Shown piece by piece: positions 2,671 through 50,689 of a stretch of 64,000 bases of DNA. Each line of letters opens with the position of its first letter. The stretch's first letter is position 1. Both the position numbers and the translations under genes were made by a program. This DNA is from Hysterangium stoloniferum (taxonomy: Eukaryota > Basidiomycota > Agaricomycetes > Hysterangiales > Hysterangiaceae), in assembly GCA_015178975.1 (NCBI GenBank), contig WHVD01000176.1, forward strand, positions 1 through 64,000. Reading direction: 5' to 3'. The notes under the pieces are model-generated. The model was not told the origin of the DNA and searched no databases. It saw only the letters and a program-made list of their open reading frames with translations.

Positions 2671-2759
2671 ATATCAATTGGGTGGATTATTCATCACAAG
2701 GTGGTGAAAGACACAGCCTTGGGAGTTCTTACCAGCGTGATCCATGGGGACGAGTAATC

Positions 2760-3300
2760 CATGTGAGCTGTAAAACTTAATTTATCATGCCTTGTATGAT
2801 CGAAGTAGAGCGTGGGTTTATTTTCCAGCAGCCTAAATGGGGAACATGACTCGCAGTTCCACCTCGTCTCCTGACCATACGCCTTCCTACCCACTAAGAG
2901 TCGTCATATGGGCATACAAGGTGGATGTTTTCGGTTCCCAGAAGAGATGATAGGACGGAGGGCAATGGCACAGGGGTGGCATTAGGCCGCCGAAAAGTTA
3001 CAGTGGTAAGTACAGCGGGAATTGGAAATGGTGGATAACGGGTTATTTTTACGTTCTTGTACAGACTTTTCGTATTTTTTATTTTTGCGTTCATCTTGAC
3101 CTCGACTATAAACAAGAGACTGTTCATGCGCTGTTTGATTATCCTATTAAGGAAACGAAGCAAAGGGACGCATTAATGAACCCAATGAAAGCCACAATGA
3201 AGGAACAACCCATCGATCGATTCTTCGCACCTGCTTACAGGCAATTTCAACGTCTTTCACATAGAATTCATCTTCTTGACAGCTATCGCACCACTATTTG
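2760..3300 (+). pseudogene. P family, copy P1 (fragment between X arms)
   Basis: Function unrecognised. Landmarks shared with other P copies are 'cagcctaaatggggaac', a GTAAGT donor near 3005 and the exon with residues ETVHALFDYPIKETKQRD (about 3115-3170), ending near LSHRIHLLDSYRTTI at 3297. The fragment stops where the opposed X arm begins, so the 3' exon (DEVQILCVMGETKGKGVEVD in the 43 kb copy) is missing. A reverse-strand frame is also open, but the + reading is the one conserved between copies. Confidence 0.5.
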
Positions 3301-4150
3301 AAAAGCGCGTATACCCAACAAATCCGCGGATGGGTTGAAGCTACCCAATAATAATCGAGTACATGTTTGACTAGGAATATAATTTTTTAATGTATCAGTT
3401 AATATATCGAAGGGTTTCCGCCGGGATGGCCCCCCCACCATGCTATTTGATCGCATGCAACGTCCGCCCATATTTAGCCCCACCTGATGTCGTGTCACAG
3501 GTTTAATCTATACCAGGTCAATACACTACCGATGCCATAGACCCTACGACTACACCAGTCAAGAATGAAGGAAGTTAGGTAGTCAACGAAGTTACTCGGC
3601 CTCCCAGATATAAACACCAATGCATGTTTCTCGTCATCATACTTGCGCCATGTATTTTGGCTGTTTCAGCCCTCCTGGCGATCCTCCACCATTTGATGGC
3701 GCTCCAAGCCTCGTGTGATTGTGACCCGTGTGATCACTGGTTGTGGAGAAAGAAGCCAAGCTAAAAATAGAGTCGATGTCTCCACATTAAAACCACAATT
3801 CAAAAAGCAGGGGCAAATAAAGAATTTGATCACCGAGACGTCTGAGACACGAGTCACGTACCACAGCCCACGGCCTCCCATGACTGACACTTAGCATTAG
3901 CGACTTCCCTATCATGGGTCCCAAGGGCACCCATGTCAGATTCTGCGCCATTAAGAAGCATCCTTCCAACGCTAAAAAAAAGGCGATACCGATGACACGT
4001 GACCTAAATTGATGCTTCGTTTCTCAATCGTCTGGTCTTTTTGTGTCTTTGGCCAAATAGCGGTTGTGTAGGGTATCGGCCGACATGGTTTCATTACATC
4101 TAAAACAATAAAGATAAATACTCTTAGTTTTGTCCATGAATAATTCAGAC
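3297..4150 (-). repeat. X module, right arm of the inverted repeat in S1
   Basis: Reverse complement of the left arm 1923-2670, with extra sequence deleted from the left arm. Both arms start outside at a 'gaattattcatgg'-like site and end inside at 'aagcgcgtataccca'. The 626-bp spacer holds the P1 fragment. Such opposed arms would fold into a large cruciform or recombine with each other. Confidence 0.75.
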
Positions 4151-4231
4151 CCCCGTATTAGCCTGGAAGGGCCATAAAACAATAAATGGGCTGATTTTGG
4201 GGGCTGAACTAGTACTCTGTTAACCGAATAA

Positions 4232-4528
4232 TTTTGAGACGACAGGAACAATGTTGCTGTGACAAAAACCGGCAATGCTCATACCCCAAAACGCGGGAAC
4301 ACTGCCAGATCGTATATCGGACTAGACCACCTGCTTATATTTTCCCTTTCATCGTACGAGCGCATTTTTCACCCGCACGCGTATATATGTATGCGATGGT
4401 ATGAAGTGCAACCTTAGTCGTTTCCCTACAGCCCGCTGGGCAGCGGCTGAGTCTTGGGCATCCGCTGCCCCTCTTCTATTCTAGCTCGGTCCAATTTTGT
4501 CAGTTGTGCCGTCTTTCATGGTCCGGTA
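4232..4528 (+). promoter_or_regulatory. V leader, copy 1 (putative former promoter region)
   Basis: Non-coding block found only in front of short-type units (also 13805-14096, 58697-58985, and reversed at 52773-53062). It holds an AT-rich 'tatatatgtatg' TATA-like stretch near 4382, then 'cccgctgggcagcgg' (a palindrome with one central mismatch) and 'cccctcttctattctagctc'. Long-type units have the end of P here instead. The promoter role is inference from position and composition. Confidence 0.4.
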
Positions 4529-5640
4529 AATAAAACGAGGAGAAGAAGTGAAGCAGTAGCCAACCCAATCAAAGCCAAACCATGAAGCATCCATCGACCT
4601 GACGCAACAACTTGGGAGCTCCCAAATCAAGCTCGGCCTCTTCCACTTTTATTTCATGTCCTTTCCATCCACATTCAATGCCCTCTCTCTTCTCACGCTC
4701 GTCGCATTGTAGATAGACTCCATCTTGGACAACGTCCTCCTACTCTCCCAACCTCCCAACCTCCCAACCTCCCCAAACCCAAACCCAAACCCAAACCTGT
4801 CCCCTCAAAGTCCGCAACGATGACTATTTCCACGAACCTCGTCGATAAATCACTGACCCGGTTTTCCTTGCGAGCTAACTTCTACGTCGAGGCATTACAA
4901 CGGACTGCATCGGTGGTAACGGCGTACTTGGTGGTGCCTCAACAACGCCTGGAATCGCGCTGGGACTGATTGCTTTGGCGTTTGAGGACAGGGTTCAGGA
5001 TCCTGTTGACGATCCCCGTCAGTCGAAGTGACGAGCGAGAGAGCTTCGGGTTGTCGACATCCATGGACAGTTGCGGCAACTGTGCTTCCTCTAAATATTC
5101 AAAGTAAATGGCATGCACGTACCCTCTTGTCTTGTTGCATCTGTTGCATCTCTTTCTGAGTCACCTTCTCTCGACATTGCATGGTCTCGACAAGACACAG
5201 TGGGTAAATGAGGTTCTGCGACGGGACTGTTGGGAATTTTCTTGTTAGGCCATCATGGTGCAGTGTTTGGCAAGGCTTAGACTTTGGCAATGGCCTTGAA
5301 CTCGTCAACATAACTTATCGAAAGGCGACGCGCAAGAATATTTGCCCATGCTGCGTGACCCTGGTGGCAGGCTGTATGACCCTTGCTGTGGGATTCAATG
5401 CAAAGCTGTCAGCCTGATGCCTGGATGCCTCAGACACGATCAGTCGACTGGCTCAGGACTTAGGCAGCAGGGATCGGGCAAGCTGGCACCTATTCAGGCC
5501 GACACAGCTGAGAATGATATTCGGTTTCTTCCGATACTTTTACCAAACCGTGCCTCCAATTTCTCCCCATTCTAGCACAGCTCCCCATGCAAATATTATG
5601 AGTATGGATTTACCCTCAAGTGATAGAGCGTTATATAATC
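4529..5640. repeat. W/D module, copy 1
   Basis: Conserved block between V or P and the 3' end of Q. Its + strand reading (residues KSATMTISTNLVDKSLTRFS near 4810-4870) recurs in all seven W copies. The D half is conserved as well, but a - strand reading (GLEKETKKEMQQMQQDKRV in sister copies) is equally protein-like, so coding strand is undecided. A (CCCAAA)n microsatellite lies at about 4774-4798. Function unknown. Confidence 0.5.
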
Positions 5641-5689
5641 CTTTATGAATTTGAAGAGTTTATTCCCCAACGGACCGGTCGATTGTCTA

Positions 5690-6600
5690 AGGGTGCTTAG
5701 AGGTATCCACCAAGGTGTGATAGGAATATCGAGGCGACAGCATAGCCGTCACTTGGAAGTTGCGGGGAACCATTTTAGCTGGCGAATCCTCAATAAACAC
5801 CATGAGATAAATTGCGTGCGCCAGCACTACTATGACTCTGCCGATGTTCGCTTCTTCGCTAGTGCCAAGCCCGGATATAAAGGCGGTATACGTATTTATG
5901 AGAAGCCATTTCCCCCTATATCGGATTTTACCCGTGTAAGATGGCCTCCTTTAAAATTATTTTAGCATGCAATGGATGGCGTTTACCAGAATGAACATGC
6001 CTCAAGGGATCCACCCCCTCTTTAACAATTATGCTCAATTGCCCCACTGTTAGCTGTTTTTTAAGCAGCCTATTCCTTGTCTTTTCCCCCTCCTCTGTGT
6101 CTATGAGCCTTGCAACCCCCCTTTGGTGCTCCTCTACACGTCGTGTGTTGAAGAAGCACTTCCCAACCAACATGGAGATCTTGTTGCCGTACAGTAGCTT
6201 CTTCCCGATCTGTTCCATTGCCAGACCACAAAGATAACCGGGGCTGATTTCGACTTCCGTTCAATGACGAATAACAGCTTTGAGCCAGCTACTCATGGCG
6301 TCTCTCTCAATGTCGGAAATGCCTTGCTCAATCCCTGATGAATCTAGCAAGCCTTGCGGCGGCTCTAGGCCAGTTGCAAAACCACGGCACTAAACAAACA
6401 AAAAGTCCCACACATTGGAATCGATGCTCGAAACAGAAGATTACCATACCAGTTGCTGAACCCATGAATCAAGCGCTTTCTTGTTGATAGGCACATGCTC
6501 GTCACGACCTGGTCTGTGATAACAGACGCCGTGATCCTCTCTATTACATGCCAATTGGCTCTGGAGTATATCCTGAAAATGACTTTCGAGCACTCCGATC
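5690..6600 (-). pseudogene. Q family, copy Q1 (short subtype)
   Basis: Unrecognised gene. Exon 1 lacks its first ~35 codons but reads ESHFQDILQ...DSWVQQL to a donor at 6449. The 60-bp intron 6390-6449 (GTATGG...TAG) leads into exon 2 (CRGFATGLEPPQGLLDSS). Exon 2 has an in-frame TGA (after VIRH, near 6262) that the inverted copy at 51.03 kb shares, so it predates the duplication. Exon 3 has the short-subtype deletion between AKMVP and RNF, and exons 4-5 are absent. Clearly non-functional. Confidence 0.65.
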
Positions 6601-6779
6601 CTGTTACGGATGAATGTTTATTGACAAGAAATACCCAATCCTATGATGTTTCAGCAGCCGAGGCGAAGGTGCTCAAGTTTATCTTGAAGAGTGAGTCAAC
6701 TTCGTGGTGAGAAACGCGCACTTTATTCCTGACGTGCTCGTAGTATACCAATTTTTGAACCATCCCAGCATGGGGTTGT

Positions 6780-7030
6780 AATTATGCCAGCTTCTCCTTC
6801 CTGCCAATGTGCATTTAGCTAACGCTCATCCTCCGTTGTTTATACAATTGGACCTTGGTAGAGCTTGTCCAGCTATTTCATTTACATGGACATAATGATC
6901 TGAGTGACCTCATTTATGCCATCTTTTCAGCAAAATGTTTAAAATCGTTTTCTTGCATATTTAAGACTATCTATATTTTTCATATTATCATTATTCCTAT
7001 CCCCTGTCACAACAGTGCCACAGATCGACA
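6780..7030 (-). mobile_element. Copia 3'-end fragment ahead of P2
   Basis: Non-coding sequence with landmarks shared with the copia remnants at 16.8-17.06, 27.8-28.0, 34.5-34.7 and 46.75-47.0 kb: 'ccaatgtgcattt', 'gacatcatgatctgagtgac'-like text and 'tatcactattcctatcccc'. In coding copies this lies just downstream of the RNase H end, so it is probably 3' untranslated or LTR sequence. Here it turns into P upstream sequence after about 7030 rather than into RNase H. Confidence 0.5.
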
Positions 7031-8040
7031 TAAGCTCGGCCCACCCCACCTCCACCCATCTGCACCCTCCCCGTTCTGTGATCCAGTAGTCCACTGGCAG
7101 CTTATTCCCTGGCATACACGCTCATCCCAACCACACAAACAACATTAGTGCAATTACTAGTGGATGTTTCTCACTCGGGTTATATGCAATATTGACAATG
7201 AGCAAAGAAACAACAAAACGCCCACCAGAGAGGATAATTACTTGGCACCCATTCCCCCACAATTGCACATCGTTGTGTTGTTAGTGATAGATATAATGGG
7301 GCATCAACCTCTTCAGAAAGAAATTCTCGTCGGCAAGAGCCCATTCATTGGACTCAGCTACAATTCACTTGAGCTATAAAACTTAATTAATAATCGCTTG
7401 TACGATCTCAGTGGAGCGTGGTTCATTTTCTAGCAGCCTAAATGGGGAAACTGATCATGAGGGAAAGCACTCCCGCCGCTACCTCTAGTGTCCCGACCAT
7501 ACGCCTTCCCACCTCACTAAGAGCCGTCATATCGGCATACGCCGTGCATTTATTTTTGTTCCCAGGAGGGAGGATAAGATGGAAGGCAACGGCACAGTGG
7601 TGGCATAAGACCGCCGAAAACCTACAGTGGTCAGTACAACGGGAATTGGAGATGGGTCTTGTACAGACTTTTCATGTTCTGTCTCTGTTTCGTTCTTCTT
7701 GACCCCAAATATAAAAATGAGACTATTAATACGCTCTTTGGTTGTCCTAAAAGAAGACAAAGCGAAGCAACGCGTTGGTCAAGTCAATTGAAGCCAACGA
7801 TGAGAAAAAAACCATCCATCGATTCTACGCAACTATCTATAGGCACTTCCATCAAGCTTAACGTCTTTCCCGCAGAATTCATCTTCTCATCAAGATTTTG
7901 TACGGTAACAGACGCCCTGTTCCCACTCGTCGGGTACGGAAAGAGACAATGGCTTGATTCCCAGTTCTTGTACGGGGACCTTTTCGGTGTGGCTTTTCCT
8001 TTTCTTGTTTAGCACGGGTGGTAGCCAAATAATATCGTTG
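7030..8040 (+). pseudogene. P family, copy P2 (degenerate)
   Basis: The upstream part 7030-7440 is conserved with 20070-20480 and 42480-42860 but has no convincing coding frame. The coding-like part holds a form of the exon read as NSNKETIHALFGCP elsewhere (about 7700-7760) and an intron donor copy, 'tacggtaacagacgcc', near 7900. A deletion removes the intron 3' end and the start of the last exon. Function unknown; not intact. Confidence 0.5.
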
Positions 8041-8069
8041 TGGCGTCGCTCATTGTACTATAAATAAAC

Positions 8070-9240
8070 CGAAGAAAATAAGTGAAGCATTAGCCCACCC
8101 AATCAAGTCAAACCATGACACAAAACAACTATCGACTTGACGCACCTACTTGTGAGCTCCCAATCAAGCTCGGCCTCTTCCACTTTTAATTCATTTCCTT
8201 CCCATCCATGTTCAATGTCCCCTCTCTTATCACGCTCGTCGCATTATTGATAGGCTCCATCACGGACGACGTCTTCCTACTCTCCCACCCTCCTAATCTC
8301 GCCAAACCCAAATTTTTCCCTTCAAAGTACGCGACGATGTCTATTTCCACGAATATCGTGGAGCAATCGCTTACCCTGTGTTGCTTTCGAGGTAACTGAT
8401 CGAGCTTGTACGTCGAGGGACATTACAGCGGGCTGGATCGGTTGCAACGGCATACGTGGTGGCGGCGTGAACAACACCTCGAATGTTGACGGGGCTGATT
8501 TCTTTGGCGTTTGAGGAAGGGTGCAAGATCCTATTTCGGAGGCTTATGATCCCGTTGAGTGGAAGTGGCGAGCGAGAGAACGTGTGGTCAACATTCATGG
8601 GCAGTTGCGGCAACAGTGATCCTTGTCCCTTTCTGCTTCCTTTTTCTCCTTCTCTGGGCTTTTCGCGGATGTCTGCCGCCATGGCAGTGAGCTGGAAAAA
8701 TTTACTGACGCTGTTCCTGTGGAAATGCTAGGAATATTAGGAGAACTATCTCATGAGTTTTTGGGTATGACTGGGTCGGCGCTCTTGGACATGTTGAAGT
8801 GACGAGCGAGAGAGCTTCCGGTCGTCGACATCCATGGGCGACTGCGGCAACAAGTGCTGTGACTGTGGCGGGACGATATTCTCTTGTTCGGCCGTCATGG
8901 TGCAGTGTTTGGCAAGGAGGCTTAGGCTTTGGGCCTGGCGTCGGTTCGTCAATATACATTATCGAAGGCGATGCGCGATAACACTTGCCCTGGATCTGGC
9001 TGTGTGACCTTGTAGTCTGCGCGGGATTATAAGCAGAGAACTACGAGCCTGACACCTGGGTACACCAGGGTCGGCAGGTTTACTGGACGCCAGCTCAAGA
9101 CTTGAGCAGCCGGGGACCTAGCGGACAGACCTGATCAGGATTTTCGGATTTATCCGACACTTCTACCTCCACTTTCTCCGCATCCTAGCACAGTTCTCTA
9201 TGCAGACCTTATGAGTATGGATTTACCCTTAAATGATCCA
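8070..9240. repeat. W/D module, copy 2
   Basis: The + strand reading from about 8208 (SLITLVALLIGSI then ATMSISTNIVEQSL) matches other W copies and stops at GN*. In this long subtype 'ggtaactgatcgagct' follows where short-type copies read through. The D half (8770-9240) matches the 5.1, 14.4, 22.1 and 59.6 kb copies. Coding strand and product are uncertain. Confidence 0.5.
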
Positions 9241-9496
9241 TCGATGTATGATCCTGAATGGATATCAAGAGTTTATCCCCCGACGGAACGCTCAATGATT
9301 TAAGGGGGCCTGTCCAAGAACAGGTGTAAGAAGGCAAAGTTCCAAGTAATAGGGATAACAATCTCAAACCATCGTTGGAACACTTCCAGGGCTGAGAAAA
9401 CCATCCTGCGGATATCATACTTTGTGTTATTCTTCGAAGAATCTTACGATAGGTCGAACATCATTCAGGTAATGAGTAAATACGCTAGGTATATGG

Positions 9497-11328
9497 ACCA
9501 GTTTAGTCACACGCTCGTCCGTGCTTCTTCAAAAGGGATATGTAGTTTGTGTTGGAACTTGGTGACACCCCTACCAACGGAGTCGCAAGCAGACATAGGA
9601 GTGAATGCACTTCGTCCATCAAATTATTCAAGCTCGTGGCCAACATCTCCCGGGGATATGTACAACCGTCTCAAAAAGACCAGGAAGTCGTGAAGGGCGC
9701 AGATTGGGCTATCCGTCCGCACTGCCGTGCGCGCAATTTCGCGTTTTGGAGATTGTGAAATTAACGACGATGAGCCCCTTATTAGCATCGAGGAGCCAAC
9801 AAACACTAAATATTTTGATTTCGGGTTGCGAATTAATATTCTGATAGCCGAATAATTTTGAGACGACAGGTCCGCGATGGTGTAACTGTGGACTCACGCA
9901 GCATTTTAACCCCGATGGAAACATTGATATTAATTCGATCAATGTTTTCTGCAAGTACTGAAAATGAATTTACCTTAGTCTGTAAAACGTAAAGCGCTAT
10001 ATCCAATAGAGATCCATAAATGCTGCGAAGCCAAGGTTCCTGTGTGAAACAGGAGGAGAAAATCGATATTTGCAGGAAAATCAGTTTCATGTGTCCAGGG
10101 TGGTTTCGATCCTATCTGCATATTTCTCATTTGGCCATTCTCCAAAACCAGCAACGGTAAAACTTACAACCTCATCCAGAATTTGAAACAGTTTTTAATC
10201 ACATTGAGGTCCTCATGTGACAGGTCCCCTCCATCATGCACCGCCCTAATAATGAAGAAGAAATGTCCACTAGTAGTAAAACGTAGTGGAGTGGTGATAA
10301 TAGCATCAGGCGGGCTACAGAGGTATTCGCCAAGGTGTGATATGAATATCGAGGTGACAGCATAGCAGTCCCTAGGAAGTTGCGACCCGACCAGGGCAGT
10401 GTAGAGCATAGGAACCATTTTAGCTATCTCGTCCTCGCAAAACGCCATGAAGTCGATGACACGTGCCATCACTACTATGACTCTGCCGATATTCGCTTCT
10501 TCGCTAGTGCCAAGCCGGACATTAAAGGCGGTATGCGTATTTATGACAAGCCCTTTCCCCCGATTTGACGCGGGTAAGATGGTCTTCATTAAAGTTATTT
10601 CAGCATGCAATGAATGGATTTTACGCGAAGCGAACATGCCTCAAGAGATCCACCGCGTCTTTAACGATTCTGCTCAATTGCCGCACAGTTAACTGTGTGT
10701 TAAGCAGTCTAGTCGCCGTCATTTCCTCGCGAGTGAACATGAGTGTTCGGGCAACTCTTTGGCACTCCTCCACACGTCGCGTGTCTAGCAAGCAGTTCCA
10801 AATCAAAACAGATATCTTGGTGCCGTGCAGGAGCATCGTTCCAATCCGCTCTAATGCCATACCACAAAAGTAACCGGGGCCGACTTCGACTTCCGGTGGA
10901 TTGCAAATAACGGGCTTCTTCCACGCAAAACACCGTCTCTCTCAATGGAGGACATTATTTGCTCACTTCCTGATGAATCCAGGAAACCTTGCGGCGGCTC
11001 TGGGTTCTAGGCAAGTTGGAAAATCACGGCACCAAACGAAAAAAGCCTGACACATTGGAGTCCATGCTCTAAACAAAAGGTTAACATACCAGTTGCTGAA
11101 CCCATGAATAAAGCGCTTGGTTGTGATCGGTACATGCTCGTCACGACCTGGTCTGTGATAACAGAGGCCGTGACCTTCTCGATTGCACGCCCATAGTCTC
11201 TGGAGTGTATTCTGAAAATGAGTTTCGAGGACTGCGATCCGTGGATGTTCCAGGGTAGCAGGCGAGATCAATCGAGGCAGCTCTTCGGCATCGTCAGGGT
11301 GACTGGGTACTACCTCGTGTTCAGACAT
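9497..11328 (-). pseudogene. Q family, copy Q2 (long subtype, most complete exon set)
   Basis: The ATG at 11328 starts MSEHEVVPSHPDD. The intron-1 donor is at 11089, but the acceptor at 11030 has become GG instead of AG. Exon 2 carries ALERIGTMLLHGTKISVL and LTVRQLSRIVKDAVDLLRHV. Exon 3 (about 10560-10168) reads EEANIGRVIVVMARVIDFM and GLSHEDLNVIKN-like residues. Intron 3 is 10116-10167 (GTAAGT...TGCAG, 52 bp). Exon 4 has SIYGSLLDIALYVLQTKVNS. Intron 4 is 9841-9897 (GTGAGT...TCAG). Exon 5 runs toward the family-wide stop after a KHGRACD-type end. The translation is largely hydrophobic-helical; no known domain recognised. Confidence 0.65.
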
Positions 11329-11366
11329 GGGGAAGGCGAGATATAGACAATAGGCGTGTTACAAGA

Positions 11367-11530
11367 ATGGAACATCGACATATGCTTCATTTAGCCAACA
11401 TGACCATCAACAAATATGGTGTAATAATAATGAATATATTATTGACAATCACCCGCCGCTTGGTCTAAGTTGTTCGAGTAAAAAAGCATCCATTATTTTA
11501 CGAGCTGAATTCAATCTATCTCAGTACGAA
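11367..11530. repeat. E repeat, copy 1
   Basis: Begins 'catcgacatatgcttcattt' and matches 24988-25160, including the AT-rich 'gaatatattattgaca' stretch and 'gctgaattc'. The Q2 upstream sequence breaks abruptly into it near 11367. No coding frame is shared by the two copies. It may be the edge of a mobile element. Confidence 0.55.
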
Positions 11531-12607: not shown

Positions 12608-12769
12608 TGACATTAATTAAATGATGTCGGAAAAACCTTGCACAATGTGCTGGGCGAATGATCCTGTCAATAGCGATCCACCCAGCATGAGGGGGCCATA
12701 CTCTCTAAGGTCGACTCCCTTTCCCTTGTCTTCCCACGAGATACGTGGGGTAGAGTCGGGATCTGTCTC

Positions 12770-12960
12770 GGTGCCCCCACGGCTACCGTCATCCACAGCG
12801 GGTGGGCGATCAGCCGCATTGGTGCCCTTGATGTTACCGTTATCCACAGCGGGTGCGTGATCAGCCGCGTCGGCGCCCTTGAGGTTACCGTGATCCGCAG
12901 CGGGTGTGATCAGCCGCGTCGGCGCCCTTGACGTTCCCGTCATCCACAGCCAGTGCCTGA
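12770..12960 (-). repeat. 51-bp coding minisatellite in T2 (3' part)
   Basis: Repeat units encode DAADHAPAVDNGNIKGT-type 17-residue blocks; about four are visible. Continuity with the rest of the exon is restored if the LTR at 12966-13210 and one copy of TCAGC are ignored. Confidence 0.8.
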
Positions 12961-12965
12961 TCAGC

Positions 12966-13210
12966 TGTTGAAATAAAATCTTAAAGCTCGTGATCTCAAG
13001 CAATGATGAATATCATTTCCGTTTGACCCTATGTGTCTCGTAGGAGGCAAACGGATGGCGTAAGTACAAGAAATCTATACTAGTTATATACGCCTTGAGA
13101 ACAATAGACGTATGGCAACAAAGGGTTAAGCCAAACTCCAAAAGAACAATAGGGTGGCAAATTGCCGGTGTGGCACCTTGTGCATGCTCGCACAGCCCTA
13201 TATTCTAACA
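12966..13210. mobile_element. Solo LTR (245 bp) with 5-bp target duplication
   Basis: The element begins TGTTGAAAT and ends TTCTAACA (LTR-type TG...CA ends). It is flanked by TCAGC at 12961-12965 and 13211-13215. Removing it restores the T2 exon, as judged against copies at 200-660 and 55200-55750, which have no insertion. No partner LTR or internal retroelement sequence is adjacent. No second copy seen in the window. Confidence 0.85.
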
Positions 13211-13584
13211 TCAGCCGCGTCGGCGTCCTTGACGTGCGCGTTTTGAAGACGAGAGTGTGCCAAATACACATCGCGGCGAGCAGCGTGAATACCAGAGCGA
13301 TGTGTATCAAGGCAATACACGCACCGCTGATCACCACAGCATGTCTATAAAATCATTGTCAAGTATATAACTATTCGTCGCTGCACATAACACTCACCTT
13401 TGCTTGAGCTCATGTGTACATGCAGCGCATGTGGGAAGTGCGCGACGAAGCTGGGTCTGTTTCCGAATGGCTTGCTCATCAACACTGTCGCAAGGGTGTC
13501 TTTTGAGAATGGATGCAGTCTAACAGGAGTGCAACTGGTAAGTGACAGCATAGCAGGCAACAAATAATGTGATCGGTATGATAC

Positions 13585-13800
13585 CGTGAAAGCCCACAAT
13601 GAAGGAAAACCCATCGATCGATTCTTCGCACCTGCTTACAGGTAATTTCAATGTCTTTCACATAGAATTCATCTTTTTTGACTGCTATCGCACCACTATC
13701 TTCTATGGTACCAGACGCACTGCGTCCCGCCTTTTATCCAAAGTTGAAACTAGCTCATGTGGGTCTTAGCTAGTGTACAAGGCACAAATACTGTGTGTGA
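13585..13800 (+). pseudogene. P family fragment (P3)
   Basis: Short decayed stretch matching the P exon around 'cccatcgatcgattcttcgcacc', then 'ttctatggtaccagac' (a mutated form of the P intron donor region) and a piece of the last exon near 'gtgtgatggggcaaac'. It is joined on the left to T2 and on the right to a V leader, the arrangement of the short-type units. Confidence 0.5.
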
Positions 13801-13804
13801 TGGG

Positions 13805-14096
13805 GCAAACAATGTTGTTGTGACAAAAACCGGCAATGCCCATACCCAAAACGGGGGAACACTGCCAGATCGTATATCGGACTAGACCACCCGCTTATAT
13901 TTTTCCTTTCATCGTATGAGCACATTTTTCACCCACACGCGTATATATGTATGCGATGCTATGAAGTGCAACCTCAGTCGTTTCCCTACAGCCCCGCTGG
14001 GCAGCGGCTGAGTCTTGGGCATTCGCTGCCCCTCTTCTATTCTAGCTCAGTCCAATTTTGTCAGTTGTGCTGTTTTTCATTGTCCTGTAAATAAAA
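13805..14096 (+). promoter_or_regulatory. V leader, copy 2
   Basis: Same non-coding block as 4232-4528, with 'gtatatatgtatgcga', 'ccccgctgggcagcgg' and 'cccctcttctattctagctc'. A promoter role is inferred only from its conserved place ahead of the W module. Confidence 0.4.
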
Positions 14097-16236: not shown

Positions 16237-16349
16237 GGGGAGCATGAGGGATAGACAAGAGGTGTGTTACGAGAATGGAAAGAGAACCGTTGACAAGGTT
16301 CATCAGGCTCTTTCTATGTTTGTGAGACACCGCTTTGAATGTTGTTCGA

Positions 16350-17960: not shown

Positions 17961-17969
17961 TGAAAAATA

Positions 17970-38379: not shown

Positions 38380-39360
38380 TTCTTTTATTTTTAATTTTCT
38401 GGAGAGCTTCAGGTTGTCGATATCCATGGATCGTTGCGGCAACTGTGATACATGCTCTGGATATATTCAAGGTACATGCCGATATGGTTTACGCATGTAC
38501 CCTGTTGCCTCAGCGATGCTCTGCCTCAGGTGCGCTGGGCAGCCGGAAACCGTTCTTTACGAACTTCCTGTGGATATGTGAGAAAGCTTAGGAAAACCAA
38601 TGTATCCCATGAATTTTTGCGTATGGCTGTGGCGGCGCTTTTGGCCATAATGGGCTTTGAGAGATCACCGTATGATGATTTAGGTTGACCACAAGATGTA
38701 TTTTAGTCCGTCAATGTAAGAAGGATCGAGGAAGACGTCTTCAGAAGAATCACGATAGTCGTGTTCGGCCGTCATGGTGCGGTGTTTAGCAAGGCTTAGG
38801 CTTTGGGGATGGCCCCAACTCGTCAACATACCTCATAGAAGGACGCGCCATAAGACTAACCCAACTACAGAAAAAAAGAAAAAAAGCTAGTCAGTTTCAA
38901 TAGAATGAATTCAACGTGTCAACCAAAACGCACATCCTGCAGGTCGGCGACCGCCCTGTCAGCATGGAACTTTTGGCTGTCAGCGTCTGCACAGGTCTTA
39001 GCCGATAGCCATCTCAACAGACTTAATCATGCTGCGTAACCATTGTTGCGGGATTCTATGCGGAGTGTGGTCAGCCTGATGCCTGAGTGCCCCAGACACG
39101 ACCAGCCGACTGGCTCAGGACTTCGCATTGGTAAACATACTCTTCTTATGCAGGAGTGTTAAATCCTTAAGAATTCGATGAGGAGCGGGAATCGGGAAAA
39201 CCGGCACCAAGTCAGGCCCATCCGCCTGATCAACACTTTCGGTTTTTTCCGACACTTCTACCTAACCGTACCTTCAAGTTTCTCCCAGGGTCTCCCTGCA
39301 GATCCTGTGTGTATGTATTCATTTTTTGGAAATGATAGATGGTTGGATAATAATTTATGA
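38380..39360. repeat. W/D module fragment, copy 8
   Basis: Lacks W. 'gagcttcaggttgtcgatatccatgg' to 'cctcatagaagg' matches D. 38880-39180 resembles the stretch downstream of Q5 (22270-22400) and 44540-44640. 39040-39350 matches the 3' flank of Q ('gcctgatgcctg', 'cgacacttctacct'). No reliable gene. Confidence 0.45.
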
Positions 39361-39559
39361 ATTTAAAAAGTTTATTCCCCATCGGGGGATTGTCTCAGTG
39401 TTCTGTTGGAAAACAGGTGCAGGAAGGCAAGACTTGAAGTTATGGGAGTAGTAATCTCTTTCTTCAATCACCGTTTGAGCCATTTAAAGACTGAGAAAAT
39501 CATCCTTCGGATAGCATACTTTGCGTCACTCTTCGAAAAATCTTAAGCTACGTCGAACA

Positions 39560-41506
39560 TCATTCAGGCAATGAGTAAATGCGTTAGTCATATGCAACAG
39601 TCTAGTCACACGACCGTCCGCTCCTCTCCAAGAGGAATAACTAGTCTGTGTTGGAACTTGGTGAGACCCCTACAAACTGAAACTCAAGCAGACAGAGGAA
39701 GGATTGTACTTCGTCCATCAAATCAGTCACAAATATCTCCTCCCCGGGGATGTATACAACCGTCTCAAAAAAGGCCAGGGAGGCATGAAGGACACAGATA
39801 GGACTATCCGCTCGCACGGTCGCGCACGCAATTTCCGGGTCTGGAGACTGTAAAATTAACGACGATGAGCCCCTTATTAACATCAAGGCGCCATGAAACA
39901 CCGAAGTGTCTGATTTCGGGTTCTGAATTAGTATTCTGATAGCCGAATAATTTGAGACGACAGGTCCGCGATGGTGTAACTGTGGACTCACTGCAGTATT
40001 TTAACCCCGATGGAAGCAATGATTCGATCAATGTTTTCCGCCAGAAATGTGCCATCCTTAAATAATCCATCGAGTTCATTTATAATGCATTTATAAGTCA
40101 TATAGCGAAAAGGGTCGGCATACGCAAATGAATCGGTCTTGGTCCGTAAAACACCAAGCACGATATCCAATAGAGTCCCATAAATGCTGCAGAGCCAAGG
40201 ATCCTGTGTGAAACAGTAGGAGAAGATACATATTTGGCCGGGAATCACTTCCATGTTTCCACGTTGGCTTCGATTCGTATCTGCATGTTTTGCATTTCGG
40301 CCATTCTCCAAAAACAGCAACGGTAAAACTTACGACCTCATCCAGAATTTGAGATATTTTTTAACGACATTGAGATCCTAATGTGACAGGCCTTGTGTAT
40401 CATGCACCTGCGTGATAATGGGGGAGAAACAGTAGGTAATAAGAACATATTGTGAAGTGGTGAGGGCAGCCGACGGGCTACAGATATTTGCCAATATATG
40501 ATATGAATATCGAGGCGACAGCATAGCAGTCCCAGGAAGTTGCGACTCGACCAGGACAGTGAAGAGCACGGGAACCATTTTCGCTGGCGCATCCTCCATA
40601 CACGTCATGAAATAGATTACATACGCTATCTCTCCTATGACTCTACCGATATTCGCTTCTTCGCTAGTACCATACGAGAATCTAAAGGCGATATGGGTCT
40701 TCGTGAGAAGCCGACTCACCCGATATCGTATTTTGCGCGGGTAAGATGGTCTTCATTAAAATTATTTCAGCATGTAATGGATGACTATTTCCAGAAGCCG
40801 ACATGCCCCAATAGATCCAGACCCTCTCGAACTATTGTGCCCAATTTCCGCACAGTTAGCTGTTTGTTAAGCACTCTATTCACCATGATTTCCTTATGCG
40901 TGTCCTCATCCGCGTCCTCATCCGTGTCATCGAGCCTGTCGGCAACTCTCTGGTACTCTTCGACACGTCGCGTGTAGTACAAGCACTTTCCAACCAAAAT
41001 GGACATCTTAGTGCCGTAGAGTAGCTTCGTCCTGATCCGCTCTAATGCCAGACCACAAAGGTAACCGGGGCCGACTTCGACTTCCGTCGACTTACAAATA
41101 ACGGGCACCTTCCATGCATCAATGGCGTGTTTCACAATGTCGGACATGCCTTGCTCAATCCCTGATGATTCCAGTAAGCCTTGTGGCGGTTCTATGCAAG
41201 CTGCAAAACCACGGCACTAAACGAAGAAAAAAATGTTCGACACATTGGAGTCAATCCTCGAAACACAAGATTAACATACAATTTGCTGAACCCATGAATC
41301 AAGCGCGTCCTTGTTGATCGGTACATGCTCGTATCAAGACCTGGTCTGTGGTAACCTCTCTATTACACGCCCATAGTCTCTGGAGTATATCCTGAAAATG
41401 ACTTTCGAGCACTGCGATGCGTTGAGATTCGAGGGCAGTAGGGGAGATCAATCGGCAGCTCTTCGACATGGTCAGGGTGACTAGGTACTATCTCGTGGTC
41501 AGACAT
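39560..41506 (-). pseudogene. Q family, copy Q8 (long subtype)
   Basis: ATG at 41506 (MSDHEIVPSHPDHVEEL-type start). The intron 1 region is near 41215-41275 with GTATGT donor. Exon 2 (41147-40785) reads MSDIVKHAIDAWKVPVI and GPGYLCGLALERIRTKLLYG and has an extra acidic run (DDTDEDADEDTHKE). Exon 3 (40719-40378) is shifted after SQLPG. Exon 4 (40320-39988) reads SIYGTLLDIVLGVLRTKTDS and LAENIDRIIASIGVKILQ. Exon 5 has VYIPGEEIFVTDLMDEV. Several frameshifts. Upstream is the 234-bp LTR at 41536. Confidence 0.6.
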
Positions 41507-41535
41507 GGGGAACGTGAGATATAGACGTGAAGCAT

Positions 41536-41799: not shown

Positions 41800-42470
41800 T
41801 CTATTTTTGTGAGACACCGCTTCAAATTTCCAATTAACACTGGTCTACTAAGTCACAGGAAAAGGCCCGGCATCCAAAGATACTGTTAGTCGAGATGAGC
41901 TTTAAAGAGAGTCAAAACATAGCGTTTTGACAACTGTAAATGCAGAAAACAATACATTAATTATAATAAATAAACTGAAAAAGAAAAAGGCTGTTTAAGT
42001 ATGTACAACACGGGTCTGTTCTCTTCATCTGAATATTTCCGTGCATATCGACAAAGGACTTTCAACTTCGCGTTCATACAAACATCAGTGAGACTTTCTA
42101 TTCTTCTGCCGATGAACCGAGCGGTGCGGCCGAGTTAAGCTCCGCCATCCTCCGGCTCTTTCACTTTTCATTCTTTTTATGAGCAAAGAAATAGAATGGG
42201 CTATAGTTCCATTAAACGTAATGTCAGAAAATGAGGAGCAAAAACGCTTATGATGAACCTACATGAAAAAGTAAGTCCACCAGTATCTTGGCTGGAAGTC
42301 CACCCGCTGTTGTTTATTAAATTGACCTTGTTAGAACTCGTCCCCCTATTTCATTCACACGACATCATGATCTGAGTGACTTCAATTATGTCATTTTTTC
42401 CCTTTCTTCCATATTTATCACTACCCATATCACTCATATTATCACTGTTCCTATCCCCTGTCGTAGCGGT
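41800..42470 (-). repeat. N block plus copia 3'-end fragment ahead of P9
   Basis: 41800-42280 matches N blocks at 16.35, 27.35 and 32.17 kb. 42280-42470 matches the copia 3' end ('atcatgatctgagtgacttc', 'tcactgttcctatcccctgtc'). It turns into P upstream sequence after 42470. Confidence 0.5.
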
Positions 42471-43670
42471 CCCACAGATGGGCATGGCTCCGCCCGCTCC
42501 ACCTCCACCCGCCTCCACCCTCGTTCTGTCCAGTAGTCTACTGGGAGATTATTCCCTGGAATATACTTTCATCCGCAGACAAACCACATTCCTGCAAACA
42601 CTAGTAAATGCTTATTACTCATATTATCCGTAACATTGACAATGAGGGAAGAAACAACAGAATACCCATGAGAGATGATAATTACTTGGCACCCATTCGT
42701 GCACAGTTGCATATTTTTGCGTTCCTCGTGATAGATGTAATGGGGAATCGACCTCTTCAGAAAAGAATTATTGTCGGCGGCAAGAGCTCATTCATGTGAG
42801 CTATAAAACTTAATTTATAATGCCTTGTATGATCTAAGTAGAGTGTGGTTCATTTTCCAGCAGCCTAAATGGGGAACATGAGGGAAAGCACCCTCGCAGT
42901 TCCCCCTAGTGTCCTGACCTTAGGCATTCCTACCCCACTAAGAGCCGTCATATCGGTATACGCCGTGCATGCTTTCGGTTCCCAGCAGAGAAGATAGGAC
43001 GGAGGGCAACGGCACAGGGGTGGCATTAGGCCACCGAAAGGCTACAGTGTTAAGTACAGCGGGAATTGGAGATGGTGGATAACGGGTTGATTTTACGTTC
43101 TTGTACAAACCTTTCGTATTGTCTTTTTTTTTCATTTATCTTAACCTCGACTGTAAAAAAGAGACTATTCATGCACTCTTTAATTGTCCCATTAAGGAAA
43201 CGAAGCAAAGGGACGCATTAATGAACCCAATGAAAGCCCACAATAAAAAAAAAACCATTGATCGATTGTTCGCACCTGCTTACAGGCACTGCCATCAAGC
43301 TCAACCCCTTTCACATAGAATTCATTTTCTTGACAGCTTTCGTACCACTATTTTCTACGGTAACAGACACCCTGTTTCCGCTCACTTGAATGAAAAGACG
43401 CTCTGGGTCCCGCTGTTTATGCACAGTCGAAACCAGCTCATTAGAGTCTTAACCGACGAGGTACACATACTGTGTGTGATGGGGGAAACTAAAGGAAAAG
43501 GTGTGGAAGTAGATTCCAAACCGCAGGAAGGTAAAGTAGGCAGTGCAGTGGTGCGGAAAGAGACAAGGGATCGATTTCCAGTTTTTGTACAGGCATCCTT
43601 TGCGCTGTGGCTTTTTCTTTTTGGGCCAAACAATTTTGTTGCGCCGTCTTTGTTTGTACTGTAAATAAAA
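42470..43670 (+). pseudogene. P family, copy P9 (long open 3' part)
   Basis: From about 43101 one frame is open for 187 codons: DCKKETIHALFNCPIKETKQ, then HCHQAQPLSHRIHFLDSF, then NEKTLWVPLFMHSRNQLIRV, DEVHILCVMGETKGKGVEVD and KPQEGKVGSAVVRKE, ending at a TAA at 43664. The intron expected after TTIFYG is partly deleted so that the frame is bridged, which makes the open frame partly accidental. The GTAAGT donor of the earlier intron is mutated to TTAAGT (near 43048). Product unknown: no domain recognised. Confidence 0.5.
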
Positions 43671-43699
43671 AGAAGAGAAGAAGCAAAGCATTAGTCAAC

Positions 43700-44620
43700 C
43701 CAATCAAAGCCAAACCGTGAGGACAAAACACCGATCGACTTGACGGACTTAGTTGCAACCTCCGAAATCAACCTCGGTGTCTACCACTTTGACCTCATTT
43801 CCTTCCCATCCACATTCAATGTCATCCAATGTCATCGCTCTTTCACGCTCGTGGCATTGTTGATAGGCTCCATATCAGACAATGTCGTGCCACTCTCCCG
43901 CTCTCTCAATCTCGCCGAACCACACTTGTCCGTTCAAAGTTCGCGACGATGTCTATGCCCACCAACCTCGTCGAGAAATCGCAGACCCAGTATTTTTTGC
44001 AAGCTAACTGATCGAGCTTGTGCGTCAAGGCAATACAACAGGGTGGATCGGTTGTGACGGGGTACGTGGTGGCGGACAACGCCTGGAATGACAATGGGAC
44101 TTATTACGTTGGGTTTGGGGGCAAGGTACAGTATTCTGTTGTGGAGGCTTATTATCCCATTCAGTGGAAGTGGCGGGGGAGAGCGCTCGTGGTTGTCATC
44201 ACCCATGGGCGATTGTGGCATGTGTGATGCTTCCTCTGGATATTCAAGGTAAATGGCATGCATGTACCCTCTTCCTCTTGTCTTGTTGCATCTCTTGCAT
44301 CTCATTCTCATTCTCCTTCCCTGTCTTTTACGCGGCTTTCAACGAGACACGCTGGTTAAACGAAAGAGCGTGGGGTACGTTGTCAACTATGAGCAGGTGG
44401 TGTGACTGCTACGAGACTTTGGTGTATTCTCCTGTTCGGAGATCATGGTGCAGTCTTTGGGAAGGCTTAGACTTTGGGCATGGCCTCGACTAGTCAGCAT
44501 ACCTCATCGAAGGCGACGCGCGATAAGAATTGCCGAACTTCATAAATAAAGAAAAATGTTAATCAGTTTCAATAGCATGAATTCAACGCGTCAACCAAAA
44601 CAGAAATCCTATGGGTCGGT
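43700..44620. repeat. W/D module, copy 9
   Basis: On the + strand the W reading is clear: EINLGVYHFDLISFPSTFNV and, after a frame change, FATMSMPTNLVEKSQTQYFL. A following + frame (44018-44227) reads DNAWNDNGTYYVGFGGKVQY and AYYPIQWKWRGRALVVVI. A - strand frame over the same part is also open. I favour + as the original coding strand. Product unknown. Confidence 0.5.
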
Positions 44621-44639
44621 GACTCCCCTGTCGGCTTCC

Positions 44640-46304
44640 CGGTTCTGGAGATTGTAAAATCAACGACGATGAGCTCCTTATTAGCTTCGAGGCGCCATTC
44701 CACACTAAAGTATCTTATTTCGGGTCCTGAATTAGTATTCTGATAGCCGAATAATTTTGAGACGACAGGTCCGCGATGGTGTCACTACAGCATTTTAACC
44801 CCGATGGAAACAATGGTTTTAATTCGATCAACGCTTTCTGCCAGAAATGTTCCATCCTTAAATAATGCATAGAGTTCATTTATAATGCATGTATCATAGC
44901 TGTAGTGAAGGGGGTCGGCACACGCAAATAAATCGATCTTGGTCTGTAAAACGTCAAGCGCAATATCCAATAGAGTTTCATAAATGCTGCGGAGCCAAGG
45001 ATCCTGTGTGAAACAGCAGGAGAAAATCGATTTTTGTAGGTAAATCAGTTTCATGTGTCCAGGTTGGTTTCGATCGTATCTGCATATTTCTCATTTCAGC
45101 CTTCTCTAAAAACAGCAACGGTAAAACTTACGACCTCCTCCAGAATTTGAAATAGTTTTTGATCACATCGAGGTCCTCATGTGACAGGCCCCGTCTGTGA
45201 TGCACCTCCTTAATAATGTCGGTGAAACAGTCAGTCATAATAGAATATTCCAAAGTGGTGAGGGAGTCAGTCGACGGGCTACAGATATATTCGCCAAGGT
45301 GTGATATGAATATCGAGGCGACAGCATAGCTGTCACCAGGAAGTTGCGACTCGACCAGAGCAGTGAAGAGCCCAGGAACCATTTGAGCTGCCGCATCCTC
45401 GATGAAAGTCATGAAATAGATTACATACGCCATCACTACTATGACTCTGCCGATATTCACTTCCTCGCTAGTGCGAATGCAAGATATAAAGACGAAATAT
45501 GTATCCACGAGAAGCCACCTCCCCCGATCTCGGATTTGACGCGGGTAAGATGGTATTCATTAAAATGATTTCAGCATGCAATGAATGGCCATCAGCAGAA
45601 GCGAATATGCCTCAAGAGATCCACCCCCTCTTTAATGATTCTGCTCAATTGCCGCACAGTTAGCTGTTTGTTAAGCAGTCTAGTCGCCATCATTTCCTCA
45701 TGCGTGTCCTCATCCATATTATCGAGCCTGTCGGCAACTCTCTCGTACTCCTTCACACGTAGCGTGTAGTACAAGCACTTCACAATCACAATGGACATCT
45801 TGGTCCCGTACAGTAGCCTCGTCCCGATCCGCTCTAATGCCAGACCACAAAAGTGGCCGACTTCGACTTCCGGTGGATTACGAATAACGGGCTTCTTCCA
45901 CGTAGAAATAGGGTCTCTCTCAATGTCGGACATCCCTTGCTGACTTCCTGACGAATCTAGCAAGCCTTGCGGCGACTCTAGACAAGTTGCAAAACCACTG
46001 CACTAAACGAAAAAGAAGTCCGACACATTGGAGTCCATCCTTGAAACAAAAGCTTAACATACCAGTTTCTGAACCCATGAATCAAATGCGTCCTCGGTGA
46101 TCGATACATGCTCGTCACGACCTCGTCTGTGGTAACAGAAGGCGTGACCATCTACATTACACACCCTTTTTCTCTGGAGTATGCCCCGAAAATGACTTTC
46201 GAGGACTGCAATCCGTTGTTGATTCCAGGGTATCAGGCGAGATCAATGGGGGCAGCTCTTCGACATGGATCAAGGTGATTGGGCACTACCTCGTGGTCAG
46301 ACAT
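44640..46304 (-). pseudogene. Q family, copy Q9 (long subtype)
   Basis: ATG at 46304 (MSDHEVVPNHL-type). Exon 1 has a frame error near 46215. Exon 2 (45963-45592) is open: LDSSGSQQGMSDIERDPIST, LALERIGTRLLYGTKMSIVI, LLNKQLTVRQLSRIIKEGVD. Exon 3 (45508-45128) is open: SEEVNIGRVIVVMAYVIYFM to GLSHEDLDVIKNYFKFWRRS. Exon 4 (45054-44785) is open: SIYETLLDIALDVLQTKIDL. Exon 5 breaks after the first third (about 44640). Exons 2-4 all open makes it one of the youngest copies. Confidence 0.65.
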
Positions 46305-46499
46305 GGGGAACGTGAGATATAGACAATAGGCGTGTCACAAGAATGGAAAGAGAACCGTTGACAAGGTCCATATGGATTTTTCTATTTTTGGGAGACACCG
46401 CTTTGAATGCAGTCCAAATTGCCAATCAACACTGGTCTACTAACTCAGCATGCACAAGTACTGTTAGCCGAGTATGAGATTGAACGCCAAGAGTTATAA

Positions 46500-46780: not shown

Positions 46781-48265
46781 GTTGTTATTAAATTGGACCT
46801 AGTTAGAACTTGACCACCGATTTCATTTAGACTGACCATGATCTGAACGACTTCAACCATGTCATGTTTTCAGGACAAACCTTATACCCGTTTTCTTCCA
46901 TATTTATCCCTATCCATATTTTCTATATTCTCACAACCCATACATATTATCGCTCCTCATACCTCTCGCTTTATCACTATTCCTATCCCCCGTGACAATA
47001 GGCCCACACATGGGCAAAATAAATAGACCAGCACAATGTGTATAATACATGTGTGTCGATGGGGATAATAATTTTGTTAAGTATGTTGACAATCATTTCT
47101 GTTGTCTGGCGGCAGTGGAGTTGTATGGTGCTGTTTTCAATTAAATGCCGAACAAAGTTATATTTTACTTCATGTGTTTCATTCAGTGTAGCGGACATTG
47201 ATTAGAAGTGAATGCTATCATTCCTTCATTGTCGTCGAAAACAAGACACAGGTCCCGCTCCAAGAAATATTGTGTATCCTCCCGTCGATCGTCTATCCTC
47301 AGTATCCCTGCTAAATCTCCATCTGAATATCTCTGTAAGTATCAATTTCCTCCTCCTAAACGTAATTCTTGCTCTCTAGTCGTAAACAGATATTCATTTG
47401 GCGAGATTGCAGTCGGTAAGAGCAGGATTAGACGAATACTGAGATAGCTTATTGACCGAATAAGTGATAAAGGACACGATACAACAGCTGTGAACATAAG
47501 ACTTCCAATAAGCTCTAATTTAGTCGTTTTTTCTTTTTCCTCACGAGTTTCTAACCGCGCGATGGAACTAAAATCGATTCCAAGTGGGATAGAAGAGCAT
47601 GTTGCTTTAAAATTCAGTATGTTGCATTTTCCCAGGATATTTTCGATATACGGAGATATAAACCGATTTAGACTTCGCGTCCTACCAGATACTCATTCCC
47701 AAAATCCAGTGAGCTTCACTTTCACTCGAAATTCCAAATCGATCATTAATTGCCTTGTCTGGCTCTAGTAGAAGTCGATCCTCATCTCCCACTCATGTTG
47801 CATTGTTCACCCAGAAACACACTACACCCCCAATTACATCTTCCCACATCTTTAAAATACTCCGCTGTCATAACCCGAACACGTTCAATTGAGTTCCTTG
47901 GTCATAAAGTCATATAGAGTTTGTCACAATTTATTTCCGAATTCCTCGTGCCCATTGTGAGGACCTGAATGCACACCTTCCTCTCCTTGCAGCAAATGTT
48001 GAGCCTTCTGAGAATGTGGGACGAACCTCTTTTCTTATTTCAATTTGATGCAATTAATTGACGACTTCTTCGACTGTGTCCAATTCTTAGTCAATCGTTG
48101 TTGACATGACATGCCGTCAAACTCCTCGTCGTCACATTCACGGGCTAAGATAGTCTGTCCCCTCTATAACATAATCCACTTCCCATAGTTTCAATCTGAT
48201 CGAATCCATGTGGGTTTTATATTCGATAATAGCGGTTCCATCATAGCGCATTCAAACAAGTGCTG
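46780..48265 (-). mobile_element. Ty1/copia remnant C4
   Basis: RNase H end 47198-46983 (HEVKYNFVRHLIENSTIQLH, TTEMIVNILNKIII). RT piece about 47810-47640 with WVNN in place of the catalytic WVDD box and HWILGMSIW. 160 bp further upstream the sequence is already gag (about 47960-48265), so protease, integrase and the first half of RT are missing at the same junction as in C3 and C5. Stops in every domain. Joined to the 3' flank of Q10 near 48268. Confidence 0.78.
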
Positions 48266-48479
48266 ACGCTGTCACCCTGATGCCTGGATGCCCCAGGACT
48301 TGAGCGGCTTCAAACCTGCACCTGCACCCGAGGGACCTAGGCCGACACGGCTGATCAGCATTTCCGGAATTTTCCGGCACATCTATCTCTAATTTCTCCA
48401 CATACTAGCACAGTTCTCTATGCAGACCTTATGGGTATGGATTTACCCTTAAGTCATAGATCGTTATGTAATCCTTTAT

Positions 48480-50400
48480 TAATTTTAAAACTTCATTCCC
48501 GAACCGAACGCTCGATTGTCTAAGGGTGGTTGCTGTTAAAGAACAGGTGCAAGAAGGCAAAGTTTCAAGTCATAGGGGTAGCAATCTTAAACCATCGTTT
48601 GAGCCCTCTGATGACTGAGCAAATCATCCTTCGGATATCATATTGTGCGTTACTCTTTGAAAAATCGTAAGCTACGTCGAACATCATTAAGGTAATGAGT
48701 ACATACGTTAGTCATATGCAACAGTCTAGTCACATGCCCTTCCGTGCTTCTTCAAGAGGGATAAGTAATTTGTGTTGGAACTTGGTGGGACTCCGACAAA
48801 TGCAGTCGCAAGCAGACAGAGGAGCAATTGTACTTCATACATCAAGTCAGTCACGAATATCTCCTCCCCGGGGATGTATACAACCGTCTCAAAAAAGGCC
48901 AGGAAGTCGTGAAGGGCACATATTGGGCTATCCGCTCGCACTGCCGTGCACTCAATTTCGGGTTCTGGAGATTATGAAATTAACGACGATGAGCCCCTAA
49001 TTAGCCTCGAGACGCCATCAAACACCGAAATATCTGATTTCGGTTGCTGAATTATTAGTCTGATAACCGAATAATGTTGAGACGAGAGGTCCGCGATGGT
49101 GTAACTGTGGACTCAATGCAGCATTTGAACCCCGATGGAAACAATGATATTAATTCGATCAATGTTTTCTGCCATCAATGTGACATCCTTAAATAATCCA
49201 TCGAGTTCATTTATCATGCATTTATAAGCGATGTAGCGAGAAGCGTCGGCACACGAAAATGAATCGATCTTGGTCTGTAAAACGTCAAGCGCAATATCCA
49301 ATAGAGTTTCATAAATGATGCGGAACCAAGGATCCTGTGTGAAACAGCAGGAGAAAATCGATATTTGTAGGTAAATCAGTTTCATGTGTCCAGGTTGGTT
49401 TCGATCGTATCTGCATATTTCTCATTTCGGCCTTCTCTAAAAACAGCAACGGTAAAACTTACGACCTCATCCAGAATTTGAAATAGTTTTTGATCACATC
49501 GAGGTCCTCATGTGACAGGCCCTGTTCATCATGCACCTCCCTAATAATGAAGGAGAAACAGCCAGTAATAATAGAATATCGTAAAGTGGTGAGGGTGGAA
49601 GCCGAGGCCCCAGAGATATTCGCCAATGTGTGATATGAATTTCGAGGCGATAGCATAGCAGTCACGAGGAAGTCGCGACCTGACCAGGGCAGTGTAGAGC
49701 ATAAGAACCGTTTTAACTGGCTCATCTTCGATAAACGCCATCAAATAGATTACATGCGCCGTCTCTACTATGAATCTACCGATCATTATTTCTTTAATAG
49801 TACCATACCGTAATATCCAGGCTGCATACGCATCCATGAGAAGCCATTTCCTCCGATATCGGATTTTACGTGGGTAAGATTATCTTCATTAAAATGATTT
49901 CTGAATGGCCATCATCAGAAGTGAACATGCCTCACGAGATCCACCCCCTCTTTAACGATTCTGCTCAATTGCCGCACAGTTAGCTGTTTGCTAAGCAGTC
50001 TAGTCACCGTCGTTTCCTCGCGAATGAACACGAGCGTTGGGAAACTCTTTGGTACTCCTCCACACGTCGCGTGTATAGCAAGCACTTCACAACCATAATG
50101 TATATCTTGGTGCCGTACAGTAGCTTCGTCCCGATCCGCTCTAATGCCAGACCACAAACGTCACGGGGGTCGACTTCGACTTCCGGTGGATTGCGAATAA
50201 CGGGCTTCTTCCACGCAGCAATAGCGTCTCTCTCAATGTCGGATATTCATTGCTCGCTGACTGATGAGTCCAGAAAGCCTTGCGGTGGCTCTAGGTAAGT
50301 CACCAAACCACGGCAATAGACGAACAAAGATGTCCGACACATTCCAGTTCCTGAACCCATGAATGAAATGCGTGCTTGGTAATCGATACATGGTCGTCAC
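48480..50400 (-). pseudogene. Q family, copy Q10 (long subtype)
   Basis: Exon 1 is strongly decayed and intron 1 is lost near 50340. Exon 2 (about 50298-49915) carries RPSHVCG-type and LLSKQLTVRQLSRIVKEGVD residues. Exon 3 (49837-49459) reads EIMIGRFIVETAHVIYLMAF; a frame error lies in the middle. Exon 4 (49385-49113) is open (IIYETLLDIALDVLQTKIDS, LMAENIDRINIIVSIGVQML). Exon 5 (about 49060-48726) ends NYLSLLKKHGRACD then TAG. A good source for exons 4-5. Confidence 0.65.
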
Positions 50401-50689
50401 GACCTGGTTTGTGGCAACAGAGGACGTGATCCAGCGTCCAGCCAAACGCACATTGGCAGGAAGGAGAAGCTGGCGTAATTACTTTGTTCATCTGACTCCA
50501 TCATAAGCCACCAGGCTCCAACCCCATTCTGGGATGGTTCAAAAATTGGTATACTACGAGCACGTCAGGAATAAAGTGTGAGTTTCTCACCACGAAGTTG
50601 ACTCACTCTTCAAGATAAACTTGAGCACCATCGCCTCGGCTGCTGAAACATCATAGGATTGGGTATTTCTTGTCAATAAACATTCATCC

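Follow-up and report, generated by a model that had tools for sequence, protein, structure and literature searches.

The first 64,000 nucleotides (the window) of contig WHVD01000176.1 from Hysterangium stoloniferum (assembly GCA_015178975.1), here called C86 and 162 kb long, carry an ordered array in which copies of an intron-bearing gene, Q, lie between recurring spacers. An earlier note, made from the letters of the window, had described positions 2700-50430 as a head-to-tail array of a convergent gene pair (P forward, Q reverse) with copia spacers. The genome that was searched comprises 111 Mb in 554 contigs. Ten Q copies were mapped in 2700-50430, all on the minus strand, which agrees with the earlier note's count of at least ten on one strand. 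The features of the window are listed below; the P spacers carry no strand.

3988-5346: V1+P2 spacer (the V of the earlier note)
5553-6605, minus: Q copy 1, partial, exons 1-3; stop in exon 2, exon 3 in two pieces
6835-8989: P1+P2 spacer, no coding evidence
9106-11372, minus: Q copy 2, five exons recognisable, broken; stops in exons 2 and 4, exon 5 in two pieces
13713-14571: P2 spacer
15105-16379, minus: Q copy 3, exons 1-3, broken
17378-17983, minus: Ty1/copia RNase-H-region fragment, broken; 3 stops in match at 17427
18369-19145, minus: Q copy 4, exons 1-2; stops in both exons
19991-22258: P1+P2 spacer
22398-23958, minus: Q copy 5, exons 1-4; exon 3 open, stops in exon 2, exon 1 in pieces
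25662-26500: P1+P2 spacer, partial
26516-27075, minus: Q copy 6, fragment, exon 1 and part of exon 2
28357-28741, minus: Ty1/copia RNase-H-region fragment, broken; 6 stops in match at 28391
29839-32132, minus: Q copy 7, five exons; starts of exons 2, 3 and 4 out of frame
35040-35596, minus: Ty1/copia RNase-H-region fragment, broken; 6 stops in match at 35043
39344-41526, minus: Q copy 8, five exons; stops in exons 3 and 5, exon 1 in pieces
42309-44534: P1+P2 spacer, reference copy
44636-46447, minus: Q copy 9, exons 1-4; exon 5 absent, exon 1 partial
47253-47873, minus: Ty1/copia RNase-H-region fragment, broken; 2 stops in match at 47282
48324-50433, minus: Q copy 10, five exons, broken; stops in exons 2 and 5
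50692-51743, plus: inverted Q copy, exons 1-3, mirror of copy 1
60195-60907, minus: Q fragment beyond 2700-50430

Self-comparison of the window, which the earlier note had proposed as a check, gave 191 non-trivial matches of at least 150 bp (143 direct and 48 inverted), 146 of them at 75-85% identity. Reference blocks (P1, P2, QL, Q, R1, R2, and X) were cut from one unit and mapped back; matches below 150 bp and P1 matches inside R1 were dropped, and matches of the same block at most 600 bp apart were merged. This resulted in 40 mapped blocks in 2700-50430 (Q 10, R1 8, P2 6, P1 5, QL 4, R2 4, and X 3), every one in plus orientation. P1 was followed by P2 in 5/5 cases, P2 by QL or Q in 6/6, QL by Q in 4/4, X by QL in 3/3, and Q by R1 in 7/10. 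The cyclic order was kept in 37 of 39 steps, a score equalled by none of 10,000 label shuffles with strands kept (mean 11.7, maximum 22), and along the whole of C86 in 86 of 111 steps (shuffle mean 28.1, maximum 43). Since the 13 allowed steps were drawn up after the data had been seen, and small and P1-in-R1 matches were dropped, the test demonstrates non-randomness and not a prediction. The recurring cassette proposed earlier, as opposed to random scatter, was thus borne out. Of its finer order (P, W/D, Q, N, copia), the cyclic succession held, but W/D and N had no one-to-one counterparts among the mapped blocks, and the spacers between Q copies were of two kinds, P-type (P1-P2) or copia-type (R1-R2-X), that did not strictly alternate.

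The array pattern, with inversions, extends to about 158 kb, taking up most of C86; long open frames break it up at 94-114 kb. Positions 50519-53310 are an inverted copy of 3988-6778 (96.5% identical), and the Q copy at 50692-51743 consequently faces the opposite way. We conclude that the array is real and ordered. As an expanded gene family with pseudogenes it is of an ordinary kind; what sets it apart is its size and the lack of a named family to which it could be assigned.

The minus strand of the Q blocks showed stop-poor spans tiling in shifting frames, and splice signals near the frame changes were conserved across 19 aligned copies and common also to five aligned near-complete copies. 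In the latter, intron 1 reads GTATGT..(T/C)AG (59-61 nt), intron 3 GTARGY..CAG (53 nt), and intron 4 GTGAGT..(A/C)AG (119-120 nt). Intron 2 (GCATGT..AAG, 55-56 nt) is of the GC-AG type, common to the four open genes described below. The frame was maintained across all four introns in 5/5 spliced models. Four copies outside the window had consistent splice sites and were open over their five exons, from the ATG to the stop codon, giving proteins of 545 amino acids (aa) (L021, on C151), 540 and 548 aa (L025 and L026, both on C544), and 535 aa (L028, on C25), while the fifth near-complete copy, L024, had an early stop (534 aa). Judged by its sequence, Q is an unrecognised protein-coding gene family, predicted to comprise five exons on the minus strand and to encode 535-548 aa (about 540 codons).

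The designation of Q as unrecognised, already made in the earlier note, was upheld. Pfam, searched at an E value of 1, gave no match for two spliced Q proteins, nor did NCBIfam or PHROGs for one. Nothing convincing was found for Q in the PDB (one match at E 0.24; none with an exon-3 profile). Exon-3 patterns gave 10 matches in viral contigs and 25 in prokaryote contigs, none of which was confirmed as a relative. A match to a known transposon protein had been named as evidence against the idea; we found no Pfam match of any kind, and none to a transposase or Rep/helicase, in the two spliced proteins. Likewise, no recombinase, transposase, or helicase was matched by 145 open reading frame (ORF) pieces of about 80 aa or more from the window. 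Nine weak Pfam matches among these pieces, with one member each and a best E of 0.0069, were taken as chance. Rfam and tRNA searches found nothing, and listings and abstract beginnings of the open-licence literature held nothing on the Q family. Exon 1 contains a Cys/His-rich stretch, which may resemble a motif of mushroom hypothetical proteins.

Most Q copies examined are broken. Among clusters with at least three Q exons on C86 and at chosen loci elsewhere, 4/35 were open in all five exons, a proportion that is not a genome estimate because the loci outside C86 were picked for a full-length match to Q. The corresponding count in the window was 0/10, and the other window matches consisted of one or two exons. 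An exon-3 search of the genome returned 669 candidates, of which 150 were scored; these lay on 32 contigs, some of which look like near-identical duplicates of others, and were crowded on C544 (1.16-1.50 Mb), C25, C151, C193, C208, C250, C239, and C86. Among the scored matches, 38 of 52 near-full-length rows (from residue 2 or earlier to residue 138 or later) had no stop. Q shows two features of a large gene family with pseudogenes: many copies with a common exon-intron structure, and open members beside broken ones.

When the four open genes were compared in all six pairings, the ratio of nonsynonymous to synonymous substitution rates (Ka/Ks) was 0.53-0.63 at 71-79% protein identity. The open copies are thus under mild purifying constraint, a further feature of such a family. 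Among open exon copies, the median Ka/Ks was 0.61 for exon 2 (22 copies), 0.70 for exon 3 (14), 0.96 for exon 4 (9), and 0.71 for exon 5 (18). In a neutral simulation that left out indels, lineages at 10% divergence accumulated a mean of 5.6 stops, with 0.55% of runs stop-free, and 4.8% of runs were stop-free at 5% divergence.

Within the window, 42 directly matching pairs of Q copies were 75.7-88.9% identical (about 11-24% different). For 24 copies, the mean difference was 0.171 between copies on the same contig (87 pairs) and 0.162 between copies on different contigs (189 pairs), distance and divergence were not significantly correlated (Spearman 0.17, p = 0.12), and the internal branches of their tree were mostly short. 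This degree of difference, together with same-contig copies being no more alike, argues for an old main expansion, to which a few recent copies, C151:3476 and C151:94734 among them, are exceptions. No CpA-type bias of repeat-induced point mutation was found, C-to-T changes not being favoured before A.

The P blocks behaved differently from Q. No strand or frame stood out by shared stops in P1, P2, or V (about 3988-5208, a variant of P2 that differs in its first half), and codon periodicity was not convincing over P1 and P2 (27 windows, lowest p 0.026) or over V. A 193-aa ORF in P1/P2 had no Pfam match. P behaves as a spacer and is apparently non-coding, and with no standout frame or convincing periodicity in it the convergent pair is unsupported, leaving one gene family with a flanking spacer. 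The joint expansion of two families as a cassette accordingly stands for Q with its flanks but not for P. Similarly, of the intact P/Q pair expected elsewhere in the genome, four open Q genes were found outside the window, but P was not supported as a gene. Matches listed for P occurred on 19 contigs, 17 of which also had listed Q matches.

The copia remnants of the earlier description were recovered as broken fragments in some spacers. Over its last 134-135 residues, the R2 peptide (171 aa, C86:64008-64520) was 59-60% identical to 1443-aa open frames on C75, C442, C511, and C112. In the frame on C112, a 476-aa piece matched Pfam RVT_2 (8.2e-45, residues 135-359), upstream of the R2-matched part and slightly overlapping it. 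With such copia-type reverse transcriptase/RNase-H sequence, R2 is, by sequence likeness, a fragment, and only a fragment, of the RNase-H region of Ty1/copia. Q, unlike Ty1/copia, retains its introns and matches no Pfam family. Separately, C86:158724-162023 (L018:4724-8023) holds an open 1100-aa Ty1/copia gag-pol frame with Pfam gag, integrase, and RVT_2 matches, cut by the contig end.

Some spacers of units outside the window also hold fragments of the Pfam domain of PEX13, as passengers only. A 120-aa piece of the frame at C86:122559-123158 (minus) matched Peroxin-13_N at 2.9e-05, and the genome had 46 such matches on 17 contigs, all 17 of which also had a listed Q match; the listed Peroxin-13_N matches included none within the window. 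The match at C25:33553-33948 sits in an open 410-aa frame with a presumably PEX13-like start upstream, apparently an intact PEX13 gene around 33.2-34 kb. Eight places in the examined DNA resemble only the final 31-34 bp upstream of the C25 domain, indicating that those array fragments start within coding sequence. Exon 3 of Q is matched only a few kb away from the C25 gene, at C25:37459 and 39750.

Taken together, we think it likely that the orphan gene Q, with its flanks, underwent an old, genome-wide, DNA-level expansion, of which positions 2700-50430 are a decayed portion. Segmental duplication, and ectopic recombination between the repeats, would have copied the units at the DNA level, with segmental rearrangement continuing alongside the old duplication. 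Most copies, freed from selection after duplication, may have become pseudogenes, with a minority still encoding protein; at a guess, the arrays are heterochromatic. Introns were kept in the aligned Q copies, which are thus no intron-less retroposed family and did not spread via retroposition of mature mRNA. The ends of similarity were scattered in 727 ordered comparisons (terminal inverted repeats, hairpins, and target-site duplications were not searched), and as no sharp common termini were seen, a fixed-end element was probably not the vehicle. A fixed 3' end of Q, as in long interspersed nuclear elements, was also considered and rejected, since left ends were spread and crowded only modestly.

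Several observations weigh against this expansion model or its parts. Left ends crowd modestly, 178/727 falling in four 20-bp bins from -420 to -480, and the spread of units over 32 contigs is also what a mobile element could produce. Pure local tandem duplication should make neighbours more alike, which was not observed. The exon 4 median Ka/Ks is close to one, the constraint rests on few open copies, those outside C86 having been chosen for full-length match, and the evidence for the GC-AG intron is its conservation and the reading frame. Codon periodicity was absent over 19 pooled Q copies and weak over 32 (3/31 windows with p <0.05, lowest 0.012), although this is expected where most copies are pseudogenes.

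The same data can be read as the trace of an unrecognised DNA-level mobile element, for example Helitron-like, which inserted head to tail and captured PEX13 and copia pieces, with Q as its protein or passenger gene. The number and spread of the exon-3 matches, divergence that is independent of position, short internal branches, the captured pieces, the crowding of left ends, and the lack of a Pfam match of Q to a host function would all suit such an element. We nevertheless regard it as unlikely, given that sharp shared termini were not seen, that the window ORF pieces matched no recombinase, transposase, or helicase, and that conservation falls off outside the coding region and not at a common edge. 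It is doubtful, though conceivable, that Q itself is an undescribed selfish or mobile gene, whose intron-bearing protein of about 540 aa would promote its own DNA spread through repeat-rich regions with no recognisable transposase, capturing host and retrotransposon fragments. PMC11497594 describes wtf of Schizosaccharomyces pombe as a multi-exon family with pseudogenes, often near remnants of long terminal repeat (LTR) retrotransposons. Q shares these traits, having open multi-exon genes amid pseudogenes and LTR-element remnants, and by analogy might be a selfish family working like the wtf spore killers and maintained by drive or gene conversion. This seems very unlikely, as the tree of 24 copies shows no homogenisation within contigs and no sequence link between Q and wtf is known (none was tested). 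Q candidates are also far more numerous than wtf genes and lie in ordered segments, and the likeness seen is one of genomic habit. Least credible is that P and Q are two coding families which expanded jointly as a convergent pair: their blocks do lie next to each other in order, but neither frame, periodicity, nor Pfam gave P the marks of a gene.

A family of so many copies that lacks a named domain will probably be masked as repetitive sequence, and its open members may be missed in annotation. With Q one can test why a fungus retains some copies of a gene intact while most of their relatives decay, and with its arrays how host-gene (PEX13) and copia pieces become passengers in segmental arrays.

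Some further observations were made on C86 and the genome. The 11 short matches to the telomere repeat TTAGGG, on seven contigs and none on C86, were uninformative. Plavaka, a basidiomycete transposase family, had 68 genome matches, 66 above the curated cut-off, and none in 14 control genomes. The long frames at C86:94001-114400 (L012, L013, and L014) were read as Ty3/gypsy from sequence, without a family search. Near-identical stretches (99-100%) shared by C86 with C322 and C436 may be haplotype copies or recent duplications. Positions 2849-6778 and 50519-54768 form an inverted duplication, about 95-98% identical, with much of the array between its arms, and a related copy, in the orientation of the left arm (2849-6778), lies at C86:~151.6-157.9 kb. 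Finally, a block A, repeated at 1-918, 12636-13567, and 54987-56154, adjoins a hydrophobic stretch and holds a 51-bp tandem repeat able to encode a DAADHAPAVDDGN-like peptide.

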